The translations under genes were made by a program, and so were the position numbers. DNA of 32,675 bases from Candidatus Cryosericum odellii (GTDB taxonomy: Bacteria; Caldisericota; Caldisericia; Cryosericales; Cryosericaceae), in contig NZ_QXIU01000068.1 of the NCBI RefSeq assembly GCF_003570935.1, forward strand, positions 16,353 through 49,027. Reading direction: 5' to 3'. Below are positions 6,210 through 32,512 of this stretch, piece after piece. The notes beneath the pieces were generated by a model. The model worked only from the letters and a program-made list of their open reading frames with translations, made no database searches and had not been told where the DNA came from. Position 1 is the first letter of the stretch. Every line of letters begins with the position of its first letter.

Positions 6210-7223
6210 ATGGCCGGCCACGGAGATGGCCTAGCCAGTTACAAGGCGGCTGCCACGGACATATCGGTTGCCCTGTGCACGTTCAATGGAGCATTGTACC
6301 TGCAGGAGCAACTTGACAGCTTGCTACGGCAGACGTCGCGGCCCACCGAACTTGTGCTGTCGGACGATGGTTCCTCCGATGCATCGGTCAGCATCGTCAC
6401 GGAATTCGCCAGAGCTGTTGGAATGAGACTTGTCGTGGCTCCCACGCATGCGCGGCTTGGGGTGGGCCAGAACTTCAACCTGGCCCTCTTGCTGTGTTCT
6501 CGACAATATGTGGCATTGTCAGATCAGGATGACGTATGGCTGCCCGACAAGTTGGCCACGGCGCTCGCGGCAATGCATGAGGGGGAAGCCAGGTATGGAA
6601 CGAGTTGTCCTCTGCTGGTTTATACCGACCTGACGGTTGTGGCAGCTGACCTGCGCCCTATCAGTTCTTCGTTCATGAGGTCTAAAGGGTTATGCAATCC
6701 TTCTCCGCATGATGCGCTGACAATTCTACTTACGCAGAATTTTGCCACGGGCTGTACTATGCTCGTCAATCGTCAACTACTGGAGCGTGCGTTGCCAATT
6801 CCTAAGGAAGCTGTGTTTCACGATTGGTGGCTGGCTCTGGTGGCTGCCAGTTGTGGCCACGTGCTGTATGTTGACCAGCCGACTATCATGTATCGGCAGC
6901 ATGATTCAAACGTTATAGGTATCGACACCATGGCACTATCATTGAAGCGTATCATTGCCCATCCTGCTAGTCACTTGGAACATGGCATAGCCATGTGCAC
7001 GTCCTGCGCGCGTCAGCTCGACGTTCTTGAATCGCGGCTCACGGAATGCCATGCCGCAACTGCTGCAATAGAACACGTGCATCGTGTCAAGGAGGCAATT
7101 GCCTGTGGCGGTGTGAGAAGTGTAGGTCGTCTCCTGAGCCAGCATGTCCGACGACTGGGGCGGTTCAGAACAGCCACTTTGTACTTGTTGTGCATGCTGA
7201 AAGGTGCGGATCCTAGACCATGA
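6210..7223 (+). CDS. GT2 glycosyltransferase
   Basis: Family 2 glycosyltransferase of 337 residues, probably extending the repeat unit in the cytoplasm. Conserved segments are ISVALCTFNGALYLQEQLDS, ELVLSDDGSSD, LGVGQNFNLA, the metal-binding SDQDDVWLPDK, and HDWWLAL near the acceptor region. This set is typical of rhamnan and O-antigen GT2 enzymes related to RgpF-neighbour and WbbJ-cluster transferases. ATG 6210 is preferred because GAGGTGA (6198-6204) precedes it by five bases; GTG 6201 and the frame-open ATG 6141 inside the rmlB remnant are less likely. The stop overlaps the next gene by ATGA. Donor and linkage cannot be assigned. Confidence 0.86.
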   Translation: MAGHGDGLASYKAAATDISVALCTFNGALYLQEQLDSLLRQTSRPTELVLSDDGSSDASVSIVTEFARAVGMRLVVAPTHARLGVGQNFNLALLLCSRQYVALSDQDDVWLPDKLATALAAMHEGEARYGTSCPLLVYTDLTVVAADLRPISSSFMRSKGLCNPSPHDALTILLTQNFATGCTMLVNRQLLERALPIPKEAVFHDWWLALVAASCGHVLYVDQPTIMYRQHDSNVIGIDTMALSLKRIIAHPASHLEHGIAMCTSCARQLDVLESRLTECHAATAAIEHVHRVKEAIACGGVRSVGRLLSQHVRRLGRFRTATLYLLCMLKGADPRP

Positions 7224-20944: not shown

Positions 20945-23443
20945 GTGAAGAAGAACCTGATGACTGGAGGTTTTGCCGCCAGAAGTCACGATTGGCAATT
21001 GTGGTACTTGTCACTGACCATTGTCGCATCGATCCTGCTGGTCGGTGCGTGGACGCGCTGGTTTCCGCTGGAGCAGCTGTCCACGGCGTGGCTGGGTCTT
21101 GTTGCGCTGTGCATGATTGGTGTTCCCTGGCTGCGTCGCCGTTTCACGGCTGCGTCGCCGGTCATCATGTCTCCTCTTGCCTGGTTGCTCATTGCCGTTG
21201 CCGTGTTCGGTCTGGTATCATTCGCAGTCTCCGTACACCGTGGTGTGACTCTGCAGGAACTCCTCAAGTTGATGGGGCTCCTGGGTATGTTTCTGTTTGC
21301 CTTGGCCTTTGCGGGGTCCGAAGACCGTCTGCATACCCTCAGCTGGGTCGTGTTTGGTGCGAGCGCCGTCGCCATGGCAGGAAGCATAGTCCTCTATCTG
21401 TTGTCACCCCGGGTTGCGACAGGACCCATCGCGTCGCTGGCTCATGCGCTGGTCGTACGCGACCCCAACGGACGGCTCTCTGCCTTCTTCAGCTATCCCA
21501 ACGCGCTGGCTGGCTTCCTCATCCTGCCTATCTGCATTGGTGTCGGGATGTTCGCCTTCGGTCGCGCTGGTCGCGAGCGCTTGCTGGGGCTGGCTGGCAC
21601 CATTGTGCTGATGAGCGCGCTTGTACTGACCGGGTCGCGCGGGGGCATGATCGTGGCGGCAGGCGTGCTCTTGCTGCTCCCCGCTGCGGGCTGGCTGTGC
21701 AAGTATGTTTCGGGTCGTCAGATGGCGCATGTCGCCGTCGCCTATGGGGTCGTCGCTGTCATGGCAGCGGTCAGCATCGCCGTTCCCGTTTCCCGCAATC
21801 AGATATGGAAGCCCCTTGTCCAGCGATTGGTTGCCGTTGTCCAGAATGTTTCACAGGGACAGGCAGCGACGGACGTGAGCCTTGGAAGTCGGCTCCAGAT
21901 GTTCCGTGACCTTGGCCCCTATCTGCGGGCATATCCGGTCCTGGGCAGTGGCCTTGGCACCTACTCCAGTGTCTACATGAAGTTCCGGTCGCAGTTCTTC
22001 TTTGCCACCGATCCCCACTCGCTGGTGGTCAAGACTCTGGCGGAGGGTGGCATCCTCGGATTTGTCCTGGAGTTCGCCATGATTGCCGTTCTCCTTTGGA
22101 TGGGCTTCCGTGCCGCGCGTCTCTCCACTAACAAAGCTCTCACGTTCGCTGTCGTGGTGGGTATAGCTGGTACGCTGCTCCATTCCTGTTTCGACATCGA
22201 CTCCATCTTCTACGTCTTTGGTGCCGTTTGCGCCGTTTTGCTGGGCTCGTGCGCTGGGCTGACCATGCAGGCTGGGGCCTCGTTCTGGGCCCTGGGCCGG
22301 CCGGTGCGCAGGGTAGTCGGTCCTGTTTCAGGCGCGAAGCACGTGAAGAGTTCTCGTCCATGGGTGCCCGTGACAGGACTCGTGGTGCTTGGTTTGGTGG
22401 CTGTCGTGTTCATTCTGGCCACGTTTGCCGAAGCATATTGGGTGGGAGGGCAGCGAGCACTCAGCACGACGTTGGCTGTCACCGTACAAGATGAATATCA
22501 AGCTGCAGAGGTATTGAACCCGTTCAATGCGCGCTATCCGCTGGCGCTGGCGGGTCTCTCTGCGGGCCGGCTGAATGTAGTGCCAAAGGATCTCCAGCCT
22601 GCCCTCTTCGACCAGGCCAAGGGTGCATATCAGCGTGCGGTGGCCCTGGACCCGCTCAACCCAGTAGTCCAGATCCAGTATGCGCAGTTCTTGTACCAGC
22701 ATGGGGACAAGGATGCGGTCGAGGTATTCCAGCGGCTTACCACAGTGGACCCCATCGACCCTGGCACTTGGACGTCGCTGGCACATGCGCAGATCACGTT
22801 CAACCACAACACGAAGCTAGCTGAGCAGGTACTCGACCAGGCACGGCATCTGGATCCCACGTACTCTGAAATTGCCAACGTGAACAGTGACATTGCCAAC
22901 ATGAACGCTAAGATTGCTCTGGACAAAGGCGATGTAACAGCCGCCGAGGCAGCCTTCCGGCAGTCCATCAAGGCCAACCCGGCGCAACCGGCAGGTTGGT
23001 CTGGTTTGGCGAATATATACCGCACGAGCGGGCAGCAGGGCAAGCTCGTCGCAGCTTTGTTTGATGCTTCTGCGAGTGTGCTGGATGGGTCCGCGTTTTC
23101 CGCTGAGTTGCAGCGTCTGGCCCCAGTGGCACAGTGGACGTCACCAGCAACCGGCACGTCTGTTGTTCCTGGTGGCACTGTTGTTTTGGCATGGAATGTG
23201 ACTGGTGCAGCGGGTAAGCTGGAGTGGCAGACCGTCTATGCTGTTCCTGCGACTGGTAACTCGATGCTGGTAGCCGACGGTGTCAAGCCTTCGGTTCGCG
23301 GCCTGACATGGCAGGTACCCACCACCGTGCCCGCGGGTTCTTATCATTTCTATGTGTATCTTCAGGCCCCCAAGCTCATGGCGGGATCGGACAGAACATG
23401 GGCATCCTCTGCCGTCAGTTTGCCAGTCCAGGTGGGGCAATGA
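20945..23443 (+). CDS. O-antigen ligase/polymerase-like membrane protein with TPR and C-terminal Ig-like region
   Basis: Large inner-membrane protein of 832 residues. The first ~480 residues hold about twelve hydrophobic segments with the Wzy/WaaL hallmarks FFSYPNALAGFLILP, LTGSRGGMIVAAG and, in the big periplasmic loop, GSGLGTYSSVY and DPHSLVVKTLAEGGILGF. About residues 520-720 are TPR-like repeats (AKGAYQRAVALDPLNPVVQI, AEAAFRQSIKANPAQPAGWS, ANIYRTSGQQGKLVAALF). The last ~100 residues (WTSPATGTSVVPGGTVVLAW to the end) look like a beta-sandwich. It likely polymerises or ligates glycan, with the TPR part binding partners or substrate in the periplasm. GTG 20945 has AAGGGGTGAG upstream; ATG 20960 is an alternative. 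The stop overlaps the next start (ATGA). Confidence 0.87.
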   Translation: MKKNLMTGGFAARSHDWQLWYLSLTIVASILLVGAWTRWFPLEQLSTAWLGLVALCMIGVPWLRRRFTAASPVIMSPLAWLLIAVAVFGLVSFAVSVHRGVTLQELLKLMGLLGMFLFALAFAGSEDRLHTLSWVVFGASAVAMAGSIVLYLLSPRVATGPIASLAHALVVRDPNGRLSAFFSYPNALAGFLILPICIGVGMFAFGRAGRERLLGLAGTIVLMSALVLTGSRGGMIVAAGVLLLLPAAGWLCKYVSGRQMAHVAVAYGVVAVMAAVSIAVPVSRNQIWKPLVQRLVAVVQNVSQGQAATDVSLGSRLQMFRDLGPYLRAYPVLGSGLGTYSSVYMKFRSQFFFATDPHSLVVKTLAEGGILGFVLEFAMIAVLLWMGFRAARLSTNKALTFAVVVGIAGTLLHSCFDIDSIFYVFGAVCAVLLGSCAGLTMQAGASFWALGRPVRRVVGPVSGAKHVKSSRPWVPVTGLVVLGLVAVVFILATFAEAYWVGGQRALSTTLAVTVQDEYQAAEVLNPFNARYPLALAGLSAGRLNVVPKDLQPALFDQAKGAYQRAVALDPLNPVVQIQYAQFLYQHGDKDAVEVFQRLTTVDPIDPGTWTSLAHAQITFNHNTKLAEQVLDQARHLDPTYSEIANVNSDIANMNAKIALDKGDVTAAEAAFRQSIKANPAQPAGWSGLANIYRTSGQQGKLVAALFDASASVLDGSAFSAELQRLAPVAQWTSPATGTSVVPGGTVVLAWNVTGAAGKLEWQTVYAVPATGNSMLVADGVKPSVRGLTWQVPTTVPAGSYHFYVYLQAPKLMAGSDRTWASSAVSLPVQVGQ

Positions 23444-24843
23444 ACCATGCTCGGCGTCGGTCGCTCCGATGGCAACTGCATTGGGTATCCATTCCTCGTG
23501 TATGGCTTGTCTTATTTGTTGTAGCTTCTTTAGTTGCCTTAATGGTGCAGCTTGTGATATTGCCGTACATTTTCCCTCGCTGGGACGCTGGACACGGCCT
23601 GCTGGCAGGAGGAGATTGGGTTCTTTTCCACCAAATGGCTGTAGATCAGGCGAATAAAATAGTCAGTCAAGGATGGCAGACGTGGGAGCTCCAACCCTCA
23701 GGGCAGGCTCCGGCCGGAATAATGGGAGCTGTTTATGCCTTGACCGGTGTTCACGAGCCTTGGACAGTTATTCCTGTTTATGCCGCACTTTATGCTACTG
23801 CTGGAATACTTCTCTGGTTGATAGTAGATCTTTTCCTCGAAGATCGTCACCGAAGTCTTTTATGTCTAATACCATATATATGTCTACCTTCAGCGGCCAT
23901 GATTCTCTATTCCCAACCGAACAAAGACATATGGCAGATAGTTGGTTTCTTTTGCTTTGTCTATGGGTGGAGCATTCTTTTACGCTCTACAACTTGGAAA
24001 GATCTATCCAAGGTAACAAGAGCTTTTCTTATAGTACTTGTCGGGGCCATTTTTTCGTGGATAGTTCGGCCCTATTGTGTACAAATAATGCAAGCAATAG
24101 CTGCTTTGTTGGCCGTGGTTCTTACATTGATCCTTATTTACTCAATATTGAAGAAGAAACTCGCATGGTTTAGAACCTGTATCCTGATAGTTCTTGTCTG
24201 GATGTCGGTAGCAACCTTCACCCCTTTTACTTCGTTTTCTCTTACTGTTCCCAAATTCAACTTTCCAGGTTCTGTGACGGCACCTCCAAGTTCTGTGACG
24301 GTACCTATCCAAATAAACCCCAATTGGACTAACACCAATTGGTTGCCATCTTTACTAGACCAGAAACTGGCCGGCGTTGCGGCGGCCAGAGATACCTATA
24401 CCAAAACTGCGGGTAATGGTAATATAGACGACACAATTACGTTTCATTCTGCTCGCGACATGTTCTTGTACTTACCACGAGCGATAGAAATTGGTTTTCT
24501 TAGCCCTTTTCCACGACAGTGGTTTGAGTCTGGAAGTACGTCCTATAATACTCTTTTTCGTCGTGTGTCGGCCATGGAAATGATAATCACATACCTCAGC
24601 GAGTTGTTGCTGGTGTGGGGAGTTATAAAGTTTTGGCGCAGATCAGAGATATGGGTAATTTCCATCTCTTCAATTACTATGATCATGCTTTATGCTCTTA
24701 CGATTACTAATATTGGTACACTTTATCGCGAGAGATGGGGATATATGGTCCTCTTGATTACCTTGGGATTCGCCATTCTTTTAAAGAGCCATAGTCAAAA
24801 CAAAACTAAGACAAAGCAACAGATAATTGCCAAGAGTGATTGA
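23440..24843 (+). CDS. AT-rich polytopic membrane protein of unknown function
   Basis: Integral membrane protein of 467 residues with about ten hydrophobic segments, coupled to the upstream ligase-like gene by ATGA (start ATG 23440). After a first membrane segment (VWLVLFVVASLVALMVQLVI) comes GGDWVLFHQMAVDQANKI, and a large loop sits at about residues 285-365. The layout recalls GT-C glycosyltransferases or lipid-linked glycan transferases, but the motifs are not conclusive and it is not a recognisable Wzx flippase. The DNA is clearly richer in A and T than its neighbours from about 23,480 onward, indicating later acquisition. No function is assigned. Confidence 0.7.
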   Translation: MNHARRRSLRWQLHWVSIPRVWLVLFVVASLVALMVQLVILPYIFPRWDAGHGLLAGGDWVLFHQMAVDQANKIVSQGWQTWELQPSGQAPAGIMGAVYALTGVHEPWTVIPVYAALYATAGILLWLIVDLFLEDRHRSLLCLIPYICLPSAAMILYSQPNKDIWQIVGFFCFVYGWSILLRSTTWKDLSKVTRAFLIVLVGAIFSWIVRPYCVQIMQAIAALLAVVLTLILIYSILKKKLAWFRTCILIVLVWMSVATFTPFTSFSLTVPKFNFPGSVTAPPSSVTVPIQINPNWTNTNWLPSLLDQKLAGVAAARDTYTKTAGNGNIDDTITFHSARDMFLYLPRAIEIGFLSPFPRQWFESGSTSYNTLFRRVSAMEMIITYLSELLLVWGVIKFWRRSEIWVISISSITMIMLYALTITNIGTLYRERWGYMVLLITLGFAILLKSHSQNKTKTKQQIIAKSD

Positions 24844-25009: not shown

Positions 25010-25038
25010 GGGGCAGCTGTGAAGGCAGGGGAGGAGAC

Positions 25039-25812
25039 ATGAAGGCAGTCATTCTTGCTGGTGGAATCGGTTCTCGGCTGAGTGAGGAGACGACTCTGCG
25101 CCCGAAACCTATGGTCGAAGTCGGTGGCAAGCCTATCCTGTGGCATATCATGAAGACGTATGCAGCGTATGGCATTCAGGATTTTGTCATCTGTCTCGGG
25201 TACAAGGGGTATGCCATCAAGGAATACTTTGCCAACTACGTCCTGCACATGTCCGACGTGACCATCGATCTCGAACACAACAAAGTGGAATGGCATGACT
25301 CACGTGCCGAGAACTGGCGTGTGACCCTTGTCGACACAGGCGAGGAGACGATGACGGGTGGGCGCATCAAACGTATCCAGCCGCACGTAGATGGGGAGTC
25401 CTTCCTGTTGACGTATGGCGATGGCGTCGCCGACATCGATATCGCTGCACTTATTGCCTCTCACAAGCGGGCGAGCACTTTAGCAACGCTGACCGCTGTC
25501 CGGCCTCAGGGACGTTTTGGTGCCCTGGACCTTGGAGACGACAACACGGTGACGAGTTTCAGCGAAAAGCCTCCCGGTGACGGTGGCTACATCAACGGCG
25601 GCTTCTTCGTGCTCGAACCCGGCATCTTCGACTACATTGAGGACGATGCGACTGTCTGGGAGCGCGCGCCGCTCGAACACCTGGCGACCGATCATCAGTT
25701 ATCGGCGTATGTGCATGATGGTTTCTGGCAGCCGATGGACACCCTGCACGACAAGAACTTGTTGGAGAAACTGTGGTCCGAGGGACACGCGCCCTGGAAG
25801 GTCTGGAAATGA
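25039..25812 (+). CDS. rfbF: Glucose-1-phosphate cytidylyltransferase
   Basis: Makes CDP-glucose from CTP and glucose-1-phosphate, the first step to CDP-linked 3,6-dideoxyhexoses (equivalent to DdhA). The 257-residue protein begins MKAVILAGGIGSRLSEETTL with RPKPMVEVGGKPILWHIMK, the RfbF-type variant of the nucleotidyltransferase signature; YKGYAIKEYF, LTYGDGVADID, EKPPGDGGYINGGFFV and HDGFWQPMDTLHDK complete the family pattern. GGGGAGGAG precedes the ATG. An in-frame ATG at 24988 starts in the leader and adds unconserved residues. The stop overlaps rfbG by ATGA. Confidence 0.95.
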   Translation: MKAVILAGGIGSRLSEETTLRPKPMVEVGGKPILWHIMKTYAAYGIQDFVICLGYKGYAIKEYFANYVLHMSDVTIDLEHNKVEWHDSRAENWRVTLVDTGEETMTGGRIKRIQPHVDGESFLLTYGDGVADIDIAALIASHKRASTLATLTAVRPQGRFGALDLGDDNTVTSFSEKPPGDGGYINGGFFVLEPGIFDYIEDDATVWERAPLEHLATDHQLSAYVHDGFWQPMDTLHDKNLLEKLWSEGHAPWKVWK

Positions 25813-26957
25813 CGGAGCCCGAGATGACTCAGTTGTTCGATAGCTACTATGCCGGCAGGCGCGTCTTCGTCACGGGGCACACCGGGTTCAAGGGTTCCTG
25901 GCTTACGCAATGGTTGCTTCTGCTGGGGGCGGAGGTGACCGGATACAGCATCGGCGTGCCAACACAGCCATCGCTGTATGAGCCCCTTGGCTTGTCGGGG
26001 CAGATTCAGGATGTGCGGGGCGACGTGCGGAGAAGTCAGGACGTACAGACGGCAATGGCGAAGGCTGCGCCGGAGGTGGTTATCCACATGGCTGCACAAG
26101 CCCTAGTACTGCCCTCGTACGCCGATCCTCTGACAACGTTCGAAACCAATGTGATGGGCACAGCCAACGTGTTAGAGGCGGCAAGGCACTGTCCTTCGGT
26201 ACGGTCGGTCGTCATTGTGACCACCGACAAGTGTTATGCCAACAACGAGTGGCCGTACGGCTACCGCGAAGCGGACGCGCTGGGGGGCCATGACCCGTAC
26301 AGCGCCAGCAAGGCAGCAGCTGAAATGGTGGTTGCTTCGTATCGGTCATCGTTTTTTGATGCAGGGAATGCATCAGGGAAGAGGACTGGTGTAGCTTCAG
26401 TCCGGTCTGGCAACGTCATCGGTGGGGGTGACTGGGCCGCCGACCGTCTCGTGCCGGATTGCATACGCGCGCTGGCAGAGGGGCACCCCATTATCGTGCG
26501 CAATCCCGGTTCAGTGCGCCCGTGGCAGCACGTACTGGAACCGCTGTCCGGGTATCTGTGGCTGGGCGCCCTGCTGGCGCGAGATCCCGCAACGTATGGT
26601 GGAGCATGGAACTTCGGTCCGAACCCCGAAAGTGCCGTGTCTGTGGAGCAGGTGGTCAGCCAAGTGTGTCAGGTGTGGGGAGGTGCAGCGCGGTTTGAGA
26701 CAGCTACTTCTGCGCAGGCCTTGAGCGAAGCAGGCATTCTGCGGCTGGATTGCACCAAGGCCCGCTCCCAGCTGGGCTGGCATCCGGTGTATGACATGGG
26801 CGAAGCCGTTCATCAGACGGTGACGTGGTACCGCTCGACAATGGAAGATGCTGGACGGGCTGTCCCTCTCACGGTGCGGAATATCAGTGACTACGTCCAA
26901 GCTGCACGCGCCAAGGGCGTCTCTTGGGCACCGATGGATCGGGGAGGCAGGGTGTGA
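25809..26957 (+). CDS. rfbG: CDP-glucose 4,6-dehydratase
   Basis: NAD-dependent dehydratase that makes CDP-4-keto-6-deoxyglucose (equivalent to DdhB). The 382-residue protein shows [18 protein letters not shown], the typical RfbG start, then [26 protein letters not shown] with the catalytic Thr-Asp-Lys, [12 protein letters not shown] (YxxxK), [12 protein letters not shown] and [14 protein letters not shown]. The ATG overlaps the rfbF stop, and the stop overlaps rfbH. Codon use is like that of rfbF and rfbH. Confidence 0.95.
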
Positions 26958-28321
26958 GTATGGGTGTCTTGGACAACCTGTTGCCAAATCCTGCGCTTGA
27001 TACGGACCCCCGCGCTGCCGAACTGCGCTCACAGATGCTTTCCCTGGCCGCAGACTACGCAGGCCTCGTCCATGCCCCGGTGCCATTTATCCCTGGGGTG
27101 TCACCCGTGCCGGTGTCCGGCAAAACGGTCGGCGTGCCCGAAGTGCAAGCGCTGGTCAGTGCATCGCTCGACTGCTGGCTGACGACAGGGCGCTTCAACG
27201 ACGCGTTCGAGCAACAGTTGGCGAGCTACCTTGGTATCACACATGTGCTGACCGTCAACTCGGGCTCGTCGGCGAACCTTCTCGCCATCGCTGCACTCAT
27301 GACGCCGGAACTGGGCGACCGGACACTCAAGGCAGGCGACGAGGTGATCACCGCCGCCGCTGGGTTCCCCACGACGGTCAACCCTATCCTGCAGAACGGT
27401 CTAGTACCCGTTTTCGTCGACGTATCATTGCCAACATACGACGTCAATGCTGAACTGCTGGAGCAAGCTCTGTCCTCACGCACACGAGCCGTGATGCTGG
27501 CCCATACGTTGGGCAACCCGTTTGACGTGGAGGCAGTCGTCCAGTTCGCGAAGCAGCATGGGCTGTGGCTGATCGAGGATTGCTGCGACGCGCTTGGTTC
27601 TGAGTACAAAGGGCGACGTGTTGGTACCTTTGGTGACATCAGCACACTCAGCTTCTACCCCGCCCACCATATCACCACGGGTGAGGGAGGGGCGGTCTTT
27701 ACGAACAATGCGCTCCTGGCCCGTTCACTAGCATCATTGCGCGATTGGGGCCGCGACTGCTGGTGTCAGCCCGGCCACGATAACACGTGTGGCAAGAGAT
27801 ACGACTGGGAGTGGCCCGGTCTGCCCCACGGCTACGACCACAAGTACGTGTATACGCAGTTGGGATACAATCTCAAGATGACCGATATGCAGGCAGCAGT
27901 AGGTCTGGCTCAGATGGGGCAGCTTGACGATTTCGCTGTGGCAAGACAGCGCAATTACACGTTCCTGCACGAGGGTCTGTCCGGACTGCAGGATCTGTTG
28001 CTCCTTCCCGAGCCGACGCTTGGCAGCCTGCCCTCGTGGTTTGGCTTCCCGACCACGTTGCAAAGATCGGCCGCAGGCCACCGGCCTGAGCTTCTGCGCT
28101 TCCTCGAGTCACGTCATATCGGCAATCGTCTCCTGTTTGGCGGCAACCTGATACGTCAGCCCTACATGCAGGGACGAACGTACCGCGTGGCAGGGTCGTT
28201 GGCGGCCACGGACACTATCCTCGAGAATACGTTCTGGCTGGGTGTGTGTCCCGCTGTCACACTGGGAATGTTGACGTATGTCATCGAGTCTCTTACCGCA
28301 TGGGGCGCGGGGATCACATGA
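26954..28321 (+). CDS. rfbH: CDP-4-keto-6-deoxy-D-glucose 3-dehydrase (E1)
   Basis: PMP- and [2Fe-2S]-dependent dehydrase that removes the C3 hydroxyl of CDP-4-keto-6-deoxyglucose (equivalent to DdhC). The aspartate-aminotransferase fold is seen in [24 protein letters not shown] and [14 protein letters not shown], in which the usual PLP-binding Lys is His, the hallmark of this dehydrase. The iron-sulfur ligands follow the known spacing: Cys in EDCC, then 57 residues, then CWC (C-x-C), then 7 residues, then Cys in NTCGK. The length is 455 residues with GTG 26954, which has GGGGAGG six bases before it and overlaps the rfbG stop; ATG 26960 is an alternative. Its reductase partner (E3, DdhD-type) is not in the window. 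Confidence 0.95.
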
Positions 28322-30087
28322 AGGCGTCAGACTACATCGTTGAATTCCTCGCAGCGCATGGCGTCAGTATCTGCTTCGGCTATTCTGGGGGCGCGATAAC
28401 TCATATCATGGATTCTCTGCAACGGGCAAAGGGTATATGCTTCATCCAGACCTATCATGAGCAGACGGCCGCGATCGCCGCCGAGGGAGTTTCATGGTTT
28501 GGCCATACGGTCGGCGTGGCTATCGCTACGAGCGGACCAGGAGCGACGAACCTATTGACGGGGATCGCTGATGCATATTTCGATTCGATCCCCTCACTGT
28601 TCATCACTGGACAAGTGAACACCTATGAATACAAGAATGATAAGCCCATCCGTCAACAGGGATTCCAGGAAACGGATATCGTTTCGATAGTTAAGCCAAT
28701 AATCAAATATGCAGCGCTCGTCGTGGACGCGACGAGACTGCGGTACGAGTTGGAGAAAGCTTGGGCAATTGCGAAATCCGGCCGCGGGGGACCCGTATTG
28801 CTTGATATTCCGATGGATGTGCAACGGGCGGATGTCACCCCGGATGATCTTGTACCATATGATGGGAACGAGGCGGCGTGCAGCGCGAGCATCAAGTATA
28901 TGGGCGGTTTCTCTGAGGAGAAGCTGAAGAGTCTCATCGCGAATGCCGAACGGCCTATTGTCTTGCTCGGAAGCGGCGTTTTCCTGTCGGGTTCCGTAGC
29001 TCAGTATAGGGCCTTCATCCAGAGCAATGGCCTTCCAGTTGTAACATCTTTGCTGGGTAAGGGAGCCTACCCCGAGGATGATCCGCTGTGTGTCGGGATG
29101 ATTGGAAGCTATGGAAATCGGTGCGCGAATATCGCTGTAGCCAACGCGGATCTAGTATTGGCCGTAGGTACGCGGCTTGATACGCGGCAGACAGGGACAA
29201 ATCTCGCTTCTTTCGTTCGGGAAGGCCGTATTGTCAGGATCGATATCGACGAAACGGAACTAACGAACCATCGGCTGAAGAACGTCGATTCGGTACTTGG
29301 TGATGCCGGAGAGGCTCTTCATAGGCTGGTCGATATGCCTTGGGCGAGGAAATCTGATTCCTGGTCGCGCTATATCGCTCGCTTAAAGAGTGAGTATGGA
29401 CAGGAAGCGGAGATAGCGCGGAATGTCGAGAATAGGATGCCGTATAGCATAATGAAGGCGCTGAATAGGTTCTCGGCTGGCAACCATATTTACACAGTCG
29501 ATATCGGGCAAAATCAAATGTTCGCCGCGCAGATGATCCGGATACGGGAGGGTCAAGAGTGGAAAACCAGCGGCGGATTGGCTCCTATGGGCTTCTCTCT
29601 TCCCGCGGCGATTGGCGCGGCATTCGCGACAAATATGGCTCGCCCCATTTTCGCGATCGTCGGGGATGGCGGCCTCCATATGTCCATGCAGTCCTTGCTC
29701 TTGATATCGCAGTACCGGTTGCCGATCAAAATTATCCTCTTGAATAATCACTCTTTAGGCATGATAACGCAATTCCAGGATCTGTATTTTGACAAGAGAA
29801 AATCGGGGACGACGAAGGAAAGCGGCTACCTTGTACCCGAATTCTCCCTAATCGCTCGGGCCTGCGGGCTGCCTTACGCGCTTTTTACGGGCGATGATTT
29901 CGATGTGGGGGATGCTCTCGGCGATGTGATCACAGCCCCCGGGCCGGGATTGATCGAATTTGATGTCGGCGAAGATACTGCGGTATATCCGAAACTCGAA
30001 GTGAATATGCCGATAGAAGACATCGGCCCGAAATTGTCTCCGGAAGAGCTACGTTCGGCTATGATCATCGATGTGTTGAAACAATGA
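28318..30087 (+). CDS. yerE: ThDP-dependent carboligase, YerE-like (acetolactate synthase family)
   Basis: Thiamine-diphosphate enzyme of 589 residues, probably attaching a two-carbon acetyl unit from pyruvate to the 4-keto carbon of the CDP-3,6-dideoxy sugar, as YerE does in yersiniose A synthesis. It has the three domains of the acetolactate synthase family: the N-terminal pyrimidine-binding part ([26 protein letters not shown] with the catalytic Glu, [17 protein letters not shown]), the central part (IVLLGSGV) and the C-terminal diphosphate-binding part ([12 protein letters not shown] ending in NNHSLGM). Its place directly after rfbH, with a reductase following and no regulatory subunit gene, supports the sugar role over amino-acid synthesis. 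Codon use differs from the rfb genes. Coupled by ATGA on both sides. Confidence 0.82.
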
Positions 30088-31073
30088 AAATCGCCATTCT
30101 CGGCGCGACGAGCCATATTGCAAAGAACCTCGTCTATTACTTTCGTAGAGACTCGCATTACGAGCTATTTCTCTTTGCGCGCAACCAAGGAGCCGTGTAT
30201 GAATTCCTGAAGGCAACCGAGGGTGAGCTATCCCCCAGCGTCGCGGGCTTTGATTGTTTTCCAGGCGGGGATTACGATGCGGTTATAAACTGCGTGGGCA
30301 TAGCGGATCCTCAAAAGCAGAAGAACGCCGGTGTTGAGCTCTTCCGCCTCACTGAGCGCTTCGACGACCTCGTCCTCGACTATCTGGCGGTGCACGAGAA
30401 AACAGTCTACATCAATGTCTCGAGCGGGGCGGTGTACGGCACTGCTTTCGACTCAGGAGTCGAGGGCAACGCTGTCGCGTCTATAGCTGTAAACGGTATT
30501 ACGCCCGCCGATTACTATCGCATCGCCAAACTGAACGCCGAGGCGAAGCATCGGGCAATGGCCGATCGTAACATTATCGATCTCCGTGTATTCAGTTTCT
30601 TCAGCCGTTTCATCGATCTCGAATCGGGGTTCCTGTTGACAGAAATGATGCGTTGCGTGATAGAACGGCGACCTTTCTATACAAATGCCGTCGACATCGT
30701 GCGCGATTATGTGGCGCCAAGCGATCTGTTTTCGCTTGTGAAATTATGCGTCGCGAGTAATGGAATCAATCAACCGGTCGATGTATTCAGCGCGGGGCCA
30801 GTACGAAAAAGCGAGCTCATTGCCCTCTTTTCTCGCGATTTCGGTCTTGAGACGCGGATCGACGAAGAAGCCCACGTCTCGACGACTGGCGCGAAGCTCG
30901 CTTATTACTCCGCGAACCATGTCGCAAGGAGTCTGTTGAACTACATCCCAGCGCTGACATCTCGCGACGCGGTACGTGATGAAGCCAATGTGATCATCGC
31001 CGGAATGGCAACCATGCATCAGTCTGAAGGATTGTCTAGTGGCCATCGAAGTAGAAGCTTAGGAGGGTGCTGA
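30084..31073 (+). CDS. yerF: NAD(P)-dependent reductase, YerF-like
   Basis: Extended short-chain dehydrogenase of 329 residues. The dinucleotide fold opens IAILGATSHIAKNLVYYF; NCVGIADPQ, NVSSGAVYG and the catalytic YYRIAKLNAE (YxxxK) follow, then RVFSFFSRFIDLESGFLL. In yersiniose A synthesis YerF reduces the acetyl branch installed by YerE to a hydroxyethyl group, and this gene has the right type and position. It overlaps the yerE stop by ATGA and shares its codon habits. The last ~14 residues (GLSSGHRSRSLGGC) look foreign to the fold and contain the ribosome binding site of the next gene, suggesting a recombination junction. Confidence 0.78.
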   Translation: MKIAILGATSHIAKNLVYYFRRDSHYELFLFARNQGAVYEFLKATEGELSPSVAGFDCFPGGDYDAVINCVGIADPQKQKNAGVELFRLTERFDDLVLDYLAVHEKTVYINVSSGAVYGTAFDSGVEGNAVASIAVNGITPADYYRIAKLNAEAKHRAMADRNIIDLRVFSFFSRFIDLESGFLLTEMMRCVIERRPFYTNAVDIVRDYVAPSDLFSLVKLCVASNGINQPVDVFSAGPVRKSELIALFSRDFGLETRIDEEAHVSTTGAKLAYYSANHVARSLLNYIPALTSRDAVRDEANVIIAGMATMHQSEGLSSGHRSRSLGGC

Positions 31074-32059
31074 TGGCAACCGTTGATGTGTTGGTCCCGA
31101 CCTACAACCGGTCGGCTATGCTGCGCCAGTGCCTGGAGTCCATACAGGCACAGACGTACACGGACATACGGGTTATCATCGGCGACAACTGCTCTGACGA
31201 CGACACGAGGACGGTGGCACAGGATTTCTGCGGCAGGGATGGTCGATTCGGCTACGTACGCAATGCAGCGAACCTTGGCGCATGGGGCAATATGAACGCG
31301 CTGTTCACGCGGGTTACGGCGCCGTATGTGCACTTCATGCACGATGATGACTGGCTGGAACCCTCCTTCTACGAGCGAATGATCGCTGGGCTGGAGGAAT
31401 CGCCAGAAGTGGGCCTTGCTTGGCCGAGAGTCATTCTGTCTGAGGGAGAAAACGAGACTGCAATCAGACTGCCGGAAAGGTTCAGTCATGATCAAGTTTT
31501 GCCTGAGGATGCTGCGTTCGAGGAGTTGCTGCATAGCGATTTCGTCCCATGTCCCGCAGTAGTTCTCCGCACATCGGTACTGCGGGAATTGGGCCCGTTT
31601 TCCGAATACCTGAGCGCGGACTGGCTGATGTGGCTGCGCATAGCTCTCCATCATGATCTGAAGTTCATCGACGCTCCGCTGTTTCACTACCGCTTACATG
31701 AGGGGCAAGAAAGCGCAGACAACTTTCGAATGGGCAGAGACGTGATCGATATGTTCGAATTTGCCTGCGGGCTCGAGGAATTCTCTGGCAGGCAGGCTGA
31801 GATCGCGCTGGCTCGGTTTGGGGGTGTTCGCGACCATATGATATCGATAGGAGTGAAGGGGAAGCCTCAGGCTCCTCACTTGATATGCGAGCTGACTTCG
31901 TACTTCTTGGGACACGTGCCTGATCACCACAATGCAATACGGAGAGTCGAGATGATTGCGCTGGCATATGCAATGGTTCCCCCTTGGTTCAGACCGCGCA
32001 AAGGAAGTAGACTTCGGCATTGGCTCCGACGCCTATTCCTGCCTTGGAGCAGGAGATAG
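31073..32059 (+). CDS. GT2 glycosyltransferase
   Basis: Family 2 glycosyltransferase of 328 residues. VDVLVPTYNRSAMLRQCLES, VIIGDNCSDDD, NLGAWGNMNALF, the metal-binding MHDDDWLEPSF and LSADWLMWLRIAL are the ordered GT-A motifs, and a basic Trp-rich C-terminus (RHWLRRLFLPW) suggests membrane association. ATG 31073 is preferred (AGGAGGGT at 31061-31068; the stop of yerF overlaps as TGATG); GTG 31067 overlaps the ribosome site. Lying directly after the branched-sugar genes, it is a candidate for adding that sugar to the repeat unit, which is inference from position. Confidence 0.87.
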   Translation: MATVDVLVPTYNRSAMLRQCLESIQAQTYTDIRVIIGDNCSDDDTRTVAQDFCGRDGRFGYVRNAANLGAWGNMNALFTRVTAPYVHFMHDDDWLEPSFYERMIAGLEESPEVGLAWPRVILSEGENETAIRLPERFSHDQVLPEDAAFEELLHSDFVPCPAVVLRTSVLRELGPFSEYLSADWLMWLRIALHHDLKFIDAPLFHYRLHEGQESADNFRMGRDVIDMFEFACGLEEFSGRQAEIALARFGGVRDHMISIGVKGKPQAPHLICELTSYFLGHVPDHHNAIRRVEMIALAYAMVPPWFRPRKGSRLRHWLRRLFLPWSRR

Positions 32060-32160: not shown

Positions 32161-32255
32161 TGCACGCGACGGATGCGAATGGTAAAGCGCTTCGCATGAT
32201 ATGTAGTATCTGCGATCATTGGCGTGCGAGTCTTTCAAAGGAGGCAATGGTATGA
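32161..32255 (+). pseudogene. Decayed copy of the cpsB 3' end
   Basis: The frame ending at the TGA 32253-32255 reads ATDANGKALRMICSICDHW then RASLSKEAMV, matching the CpsB end ATDAHNATLRVPRSIWNDS then STSLSKEALE. The bases TCAAAGGAGGCA before the next start are the same as in the original, and the ATGA overlap with the following rmlA-like frame is kept. The match fades before about 32,160, so only the last ~30 codons remain. No start codon is left. Confidence 0.75.
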
Positions 32256-32512
32256 AAGGTATTGTTCTTTCTGGTAGTACTGGTTTACGTGTGCCTCCCC
32301 TGACGGCGGTGACCAACAAGGTCCTTTTGCCCATGGGCCAGTATCTCACGGTGTTTCAGTCCACCGAACGTCTCAAGCAGGCTGGCATCAGGGATGTTCT
32401 GGTCGTTACAGGTCGTGACTACATGGGAGACGTCATAGAATTGCCAGGCAGTGGGCACAATTTCGGGTTCACGTACAAGGTGCAGGACGCTCAGCACCTT
32501 GGCGTGGGCTGA
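32252..32512 (+). pseudogene. Truncated, decayed copy of rmlA
   Basis: An 86-codon frame matching the first third of RmlA (MKGIVLSGSTG, then RLKQAGIRDVLVVTGRDYMGDVIEL and TYKVQDA), ending early at a stop. Key residues are damaged: the nucleotide-binding GGTGSRL is now GSTGLRV, and the conserved LLPVGNYPM is LLPMGQYLT. It retains the strong ribosome site, so a short peptide could still be translated, but it cannot be a nucleotidyltransferase. Confidence 0.85.

Follow-up and report, generated by a model that had tools for sequence, protein, structure and literature searches.

A putative yersiniose-type branched-sugar operon and the scar of a cassette exchange in a polysaccharide locus of Candidatus Cryosericum odellii

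The genes for yersiniose A in Yersinia pseudotuberculosis are arranged as ddhDABC-yerE-yerF, and homologues have been reported in Pseudomonas WCS417 (PMC4509608). In the same species the sugar-specific genes for abequose, paratose/tyvelose, ascarylose and yersiniose follow one general pattern, in which they are combined with ddhDABC and a transferase (PMC3715488). The substrates of YerE are pyruvate and CDP-3,6-dideoxy-4-keto-D-glucose (PMC12247030). Here, we describe five genes from another phylum that can be read along the same lines, and a same-genus relative in which a different pair stands in the place of two of them.

The window, by which we mean the whole analysed stretch of 32,675 nt (contig C234:16353-49027), comes from a 2.0 Mb draft genome (MAG) that is 75% complete and 9% contaminated, and its right end coincides with the contig end. 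Parts of its first 12 kb are matched in 9 of the 14 other genomes of the genus, and hence the contig fits the genus. The five genes lie in a polysaccharide locus with rmlA, rmlD, rmlB, several glycosyltransferases, Wzy_C (O-antigen ligase-like) proteins and an initiating sugar transferase, in agreement with the rhamnose-locus setting given in the first-pass annotation. That annotation had also named rfbF, rfbG and rfbH, followed through ATGA- or GTGA-type overlaps by genes for a ThDP carboligase and an SDR reductase, and this description stands in full. All five ORFs (25039-31073) are intact, on the plus strand and overlapping, with ATGA at 25809 (rfbG), GTGA at 26954 (rfbH) and ATGA at both 28318 (ThDP) and 30084 (SDR); the junction between the SDR gene and the following GT2 gene reads TGATG (31071-31075). 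The first three products all score above their NCBIfam cut-offs (Table 1). On motif inspection, RfbH has the SFYPAHH signature, with His for Lys, and exactly the iron-sulfur spacing noted before, C-x57-C-x-C-x7-C, beginning at Cys209 if numbered from ATG 26960 (the alternative start is GTG 26954); its best PDB matches, 3bcx/3bb8, are of solved E1.

Table 1 Features of the operon, the exchanged cassette and the adjacent transferase gene (window coordinates).
Feature	Coordinates	Strand	Basis
rfbF, glucose-1-phosphate cytidylyltransferase	25039..25812	+	TIGR02623 436 bits, cut-off 300
rfbG, CDP-glucose 4,6-dehydratase	25809..26957	+	TIGR02622 473 bits, cut-off 278
rfbH, PMP/iron-sulfur CDP-4-keto-6-deoxyglucose 3-dehydrase (E1)	26954..28321	+	NF011936 666 bits, cut-off 423
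Exchanged ThDP-SDR cassette	28313..31006		flanks common to same-genus G025; L093 homology stops at 28312, restarts at about 31007
YerE-like ThDP carboligase (predicted)	28318..30087	+	clade with PpYerE 100/99; best PDB match 5ahk
YerF-type SDR reductase (predicted)	30084..31073	+	clade 100/100 with SDR behind PpYerE-like genes; native part to about codon 306 (about 31001)
Scar: what is left of the displaced reductase gene (its 3' end), read in another frame as the final 22 codons of the SDR gene	31007..31073	+	L093 alignment
GT2 glycosyltransferase, possible transferase of the sugar	31073..32059	+	PF00535; 78% aa identity to the L093 copy

The ThDP protein has the motifs Glu48, GDG at 449 and NN at 476-477. 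Among solved structures it matches 5ahk best (374 bits), which we take to be PpYerE, with lower scores for plant AHAS (315) and 8rph (264), and a profile built from 24 relatives gives 603 bits for 5ahk vs 469 for AHAS. Residue 479 of 5ahk, the position mutated in PpYerE (PMC12247030), is Val, consistent with that identity; 8rph is JanthE (PMC12188165). In three trees with PpYerE as the YerE reference, the window protein groups with it and with every sampled relative in a single clade that leaves AHAS outside, with a support of 98 SH-aLRT in one tree and 100/99 in the two others. The phylogeny thus groups the 28318 product with YerE, as first suggested, and not with acetolactate synthases. Within the clade, the window protein (41% identical to PpYerE) falls in a subclade without a characterised member, together with sequences from Brevinematales, other Spirochaetota, Moraniibacteriota, WS2 and one Bacteroidales genome, while PpYerE and its Burkholderiales homologues form a separate, strongly supported subclade (100/100). 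The stretch TGQVNT...RQxGFQE, six residues longer than in AHAS, is common to the relatives and PpYerE, although part of it served as a genome-scan pattern and is not independent proof. The scan with its patterns returned 404 relatives, the best 80 of which come from more than ten phyla, archaea included, and have rfbF, rfbG or rfbH homologues nearby in 71 cases. Together with the more than 200 predicted YerE-like enzymes of a 2025 review (PMC12247030), this speaks against the initial view that such sugars are rare and described from few organisms, in that the enzyme family is not rare.

The SDR has the glycine motif, SSG and YxxxK, and Pfam assigns it only the general Epimerase domain. Its homologues recur in 12 of the 80 related loci (Spirochaetota, Bacteroidota, Bacillota, Nitrospirota and others), always 15-86 nt behind the ThDP match, which places the gene arrangement far beyond chance; mapped on the ThDP tree, the pairing needs six changes. 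An order-wide sample of 399 genomes around one Burkholderiales genome (G054) gave eight PpYerE-like matches at 49-51%, and in a class-wide sample of 369 genomes only the Burkholderiales genome at the sample centre matched. In five Burkholderiales loci (L121, L122, L124-L126), the gene for a ThDP protein approximately 50% identical to PpYerE has directly behind it an SDR gene, the product of which shares 37-41% identity with the window SDR, and three of these (L122, L124, L126) have the full order rfbF-rfbG-rfbH-ThDP-SDR. The window and Burkholderiales SDRs form one clade (100/100), outside which lie the other YerE-adjacent SDRs and the reductase of the same-genus genome G025. This supports a YerF position and type for the window SDR, the reference being the SDRs directly behind PpYerE-like genes in Burkholderiales. 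The closest fold to the SDR model (pLDDT 85.5) is an NADP-dependent CDP-glucitol-synthesis reductase (8v4g/8v4h, TM about 0.8, 14% identity), which as weak evidence would fit a reductase acting on CDP-sugars; by sequence, the SDR had no match in plasmids or in the PDB.

We consider it likely that the five genes are a YerE/YerF-type operon making a yersiniose-type CDP-3,6-dideoxy-4-C-(1-hydroxyethyl)hexose for a surface polysaccharide. RfbF would form CDP-glucose and RfbG CDP-4-keto-6-deoxyglucose, from which RfbH would take off the 3-OH with PMP, its iron-sulfur cluster and electrons from some donor. The ThDP protein, which as a YerE-like enzyme would bind FAD, would then decarboxylate pyruvate as the most likely 2-oxo acid and put the resulting acyl anion on C4 of the CDP-4-keto sugar; the SDR would reduce the new acetyl branch, and the adjacent GT2 may transfer the finished sugar. 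Yersiniose A itself, 3,6-dideoxy-4-C-[(S)-1-hydroxyethyl]-D-xylo-hexose, is a plausible exact product, with its stereochemistry presumed. The YerE/YerF logic on a CDP-3,6-dideoxy-4-keto sugar outside Yersinia, as first proposed, is thus upheld by phylogeny, synteny and the exclusion of AHAS, while the claims of a complete core and of rarity are not.

The nature of the branch depends on the donor, which varies among YerE-like enzymes, and ErwE takes longer ones (PMC12247030). If the window enzyme were YerE-like with an ErwE-like donor (a longer or hydroxylated 2-oxo acid), the SDR would reduce a longer branch of the erwiniose or caryophyllose type, and its place outside the PpYerE subclade and the Ile that it has in place of PpYerE Val479 would agree with this. 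We regard such a donor as unlikely, however, given that no dedicated donor-making gene (e.g. an aldolase) was recognised among the families beside the cassette and that the partner SDR shares its clade with the one found behind PpYerE-like genes.

In the ascarylose arrangement, an epimerase plus a reductase stand behind RfbH. Among the other genomes of the genus, only G025 has rfbH (89% aa identity), and its locus (L093) has the order rfbF-rfbG-rfbH, RmlC-like epimerase (TIGR01221 160.6 bits, cut-off 155.75), SDR of another subfamily, GT2 and rmlA, which from pathway knowledge we infer to be ascarylose-type. The two loci are 87% identical in nucleotides over 25015-28312, up to within the last rfbH codons, and homology restarts inside the 3' end of the G025 reductase gene. 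The restart falls within the end of the window SDR gene, and in its last 22 codons 50 of 66 nt are identical to L093 in another frame, compared with 29 in the best of 2000 shuffles. The resulting 22-residue tail is absent from all SDR homologues compared and is predicted to be disordered and outside the fold (pLDDT below 50 for residues 309-329). GC3 is 0.70 in rfbH vs 0.60 in the ThDP and SDR genes. Since a fragment of the epimerase-reductase allele survives in the window allele, the simplest order of events is that the ThDP-SDR pair came in as a cassette and displaced an ascarylose-type epimerase-reductase pair between rfbH and GT2, and not the reverse. A misassembly of the draft MAG at the two junctions is a formal possibility. 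The exchange is the new element of the locus: a well-resolved and, judged from the alignment, unusually clear cassette replacement with a readable scar and direction.

The GT2 gene has the same place in G025 as in the window. Further downstream, at 32252-32512, lies a truncated rmlA-like copy with a frame that stops after 86 codons, which matches residues 1-96 of the full rmlA (974-1726) at 66% identity; its G025 counterpart is full length (250 aa), and homology to G025 gives way to AT-rich sequence at about 32488. On the other side, just 5' of rfbF, 23308-24843 encodes a 511-aa membrane-like protein (GC 0.45) without a Pfam or NCBIfam match, and the gene preceding rfbF in G025 is homologous instead to the CpsB/CapC-like gene at 315-977 of the window.

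Electrons are normally fed to RfbH by E3 (CDP-6-deoxy-glucoseen reductase, RfbI/DdhD). The core had been called complete-looking, which does not hold in this respect: no dedicated E3 was found in the window, in its genome (75% complete) or in the genus. The sole PF00175 protein of the genome is one found genus-wide, apparently NfnA/SudA-like, and G025 (91% complete) has rfbH yet only this same protein. A motif scan for E3-like proteins across the 80 related loci returned none. An FNR-like gene does lie between rfbH and the YerE-like gene in one of the loci (L007:2753-3439), and L005 has a gene from that cluster at 6302-6991. In a Pfam run on L007 only, the FNR-like gene had NAD_binding_1 with no ferredoxin domain reported, and it is a candidate short E3 for RfbH in these two relatives; the L007 protein has no match in the window's genome and only weak matches in two other genomes of the genus. 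A tentative and somewhat doubtful explanation is that RfbH in this genus carries out C3-deoxygenation without a dedicated E3, on electrons from a general carrier. Five genes would then be enough for a branched 3,6-dideoxy sugar, and the tailoring pair (ascarylose-type for yersiniose-type) would be all that species exchange.

The lack of an E3 candidate, the 22-residue scar tail and the truncated rmlA copy just downstream could also mean that the locus is decaying after a recent cassette insertion, with a foreign-tailed SDR, and that no branched sugar is made. This is improbable, given that all five ORFs are intact with their catalytic motifs and the SDR tail would lie outside the fold, and that the missing E3 is common to G025 and hence not decay of the window copy alone. 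A housekeeping acetolactate synthase that lies in the locus by chance is an extremely improbable identity for the ThDP protein: TIGR00118 gives its top NCBIfam score and no other PF02776 protein in the genome is above the cut-off, but the score (455.8 bits) is below the curated cut-off (538.35), the trees and the AU test reject a grouping with AHAS (p-AU 2.8e-7), no regulatory subunit was recognised beside the gene, the other 14 genomes of the genus have no AHAS-like protein at E 1e-25, and the relatives recur in an rfbF/rfbG/rfbH context.

Across the 15 genomes of the genus there is no AHAS-like protein (E 1e-25) besides the YerE-like enzyme of the window, and the usual route to branched-chain amino acids may be missing from the genus. 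In the phylum (54 genomes including that of the window), only the window's genome has either the ThDP or the SDR gene at the thresholds used. With the ThDP protein as tblastn query, nothing in plasmids or phages matched at 60% identity or above, the annotated matches listed being acetolactate synthases, and a PpYerE search in plasmids gave only AHAS among the matches listed. Two Bacteroides fragilis loci (L018, L019) have an rfbH-rfbF-rfbG-SDR-ThDP block in a polysaccharide locus, with a YerE-like enzyme of 52% identity and an SDR of a different subfamily placed before the ThDP gene. YerE-like ThDP genes also lie beside rfbH homologues in Methanoregula and other Methanomicrobia (L038, L057, L058, L080; mostly draft genomes), and the pathway core thus appears to reach archaea.

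The enzymes of the five-gene operon belong to a known kind spread over many phyla. Here, we place a probable yersiniose-type operon in a small, little-studied phylum and find that YerE-like enzymes are repeatedly paired with this SDR family in different phyla. The locus is a clear natural case of a sugar-tailoring cassette exchanged in place, parallel to the serotype diversity of Y. pseudotuberculosis. It also supplies biocatalysis on ketones with a distant YerE-like enzyme, and it prompts the question of what reduces RfbH when there is no E3.

As in Y. pseudotuberculosis, CDP-3,6-dideoxyhexose genes are followed by those for a YerE-like ThDP enzyme and a reductase, and the sugar-specific genes occupy one exchangeable position before the transferase (PMC3715488); unlike in that species, no E3 (ddhD) gene was found in the window, the phylum is another one and the ThDP enzyme is in a non-PpYerE subclade. 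With PpYerE and the Burkholderiales loci the window has in common the YerE-like clade, the SDR family directly 3' and, for three of the loci, the gene order, although its ThDP enzyme forms part of a separate subclade. JanthE (8rph) and ErwE are likewise YerE-like, ketone-accepting ThDP enzymes (PMC12247030, PMC12188165), but JanthE has CDG where the window protein has GDG, and it scores below AHAS against the window protein. The G025 locus has the same rfbF-rfbG-rfbH genes and downstream GT2, but where the window has the ThDP-SDR pair it encodes an RmlC-like epimerase and a reductase from a different SDR subfamily.
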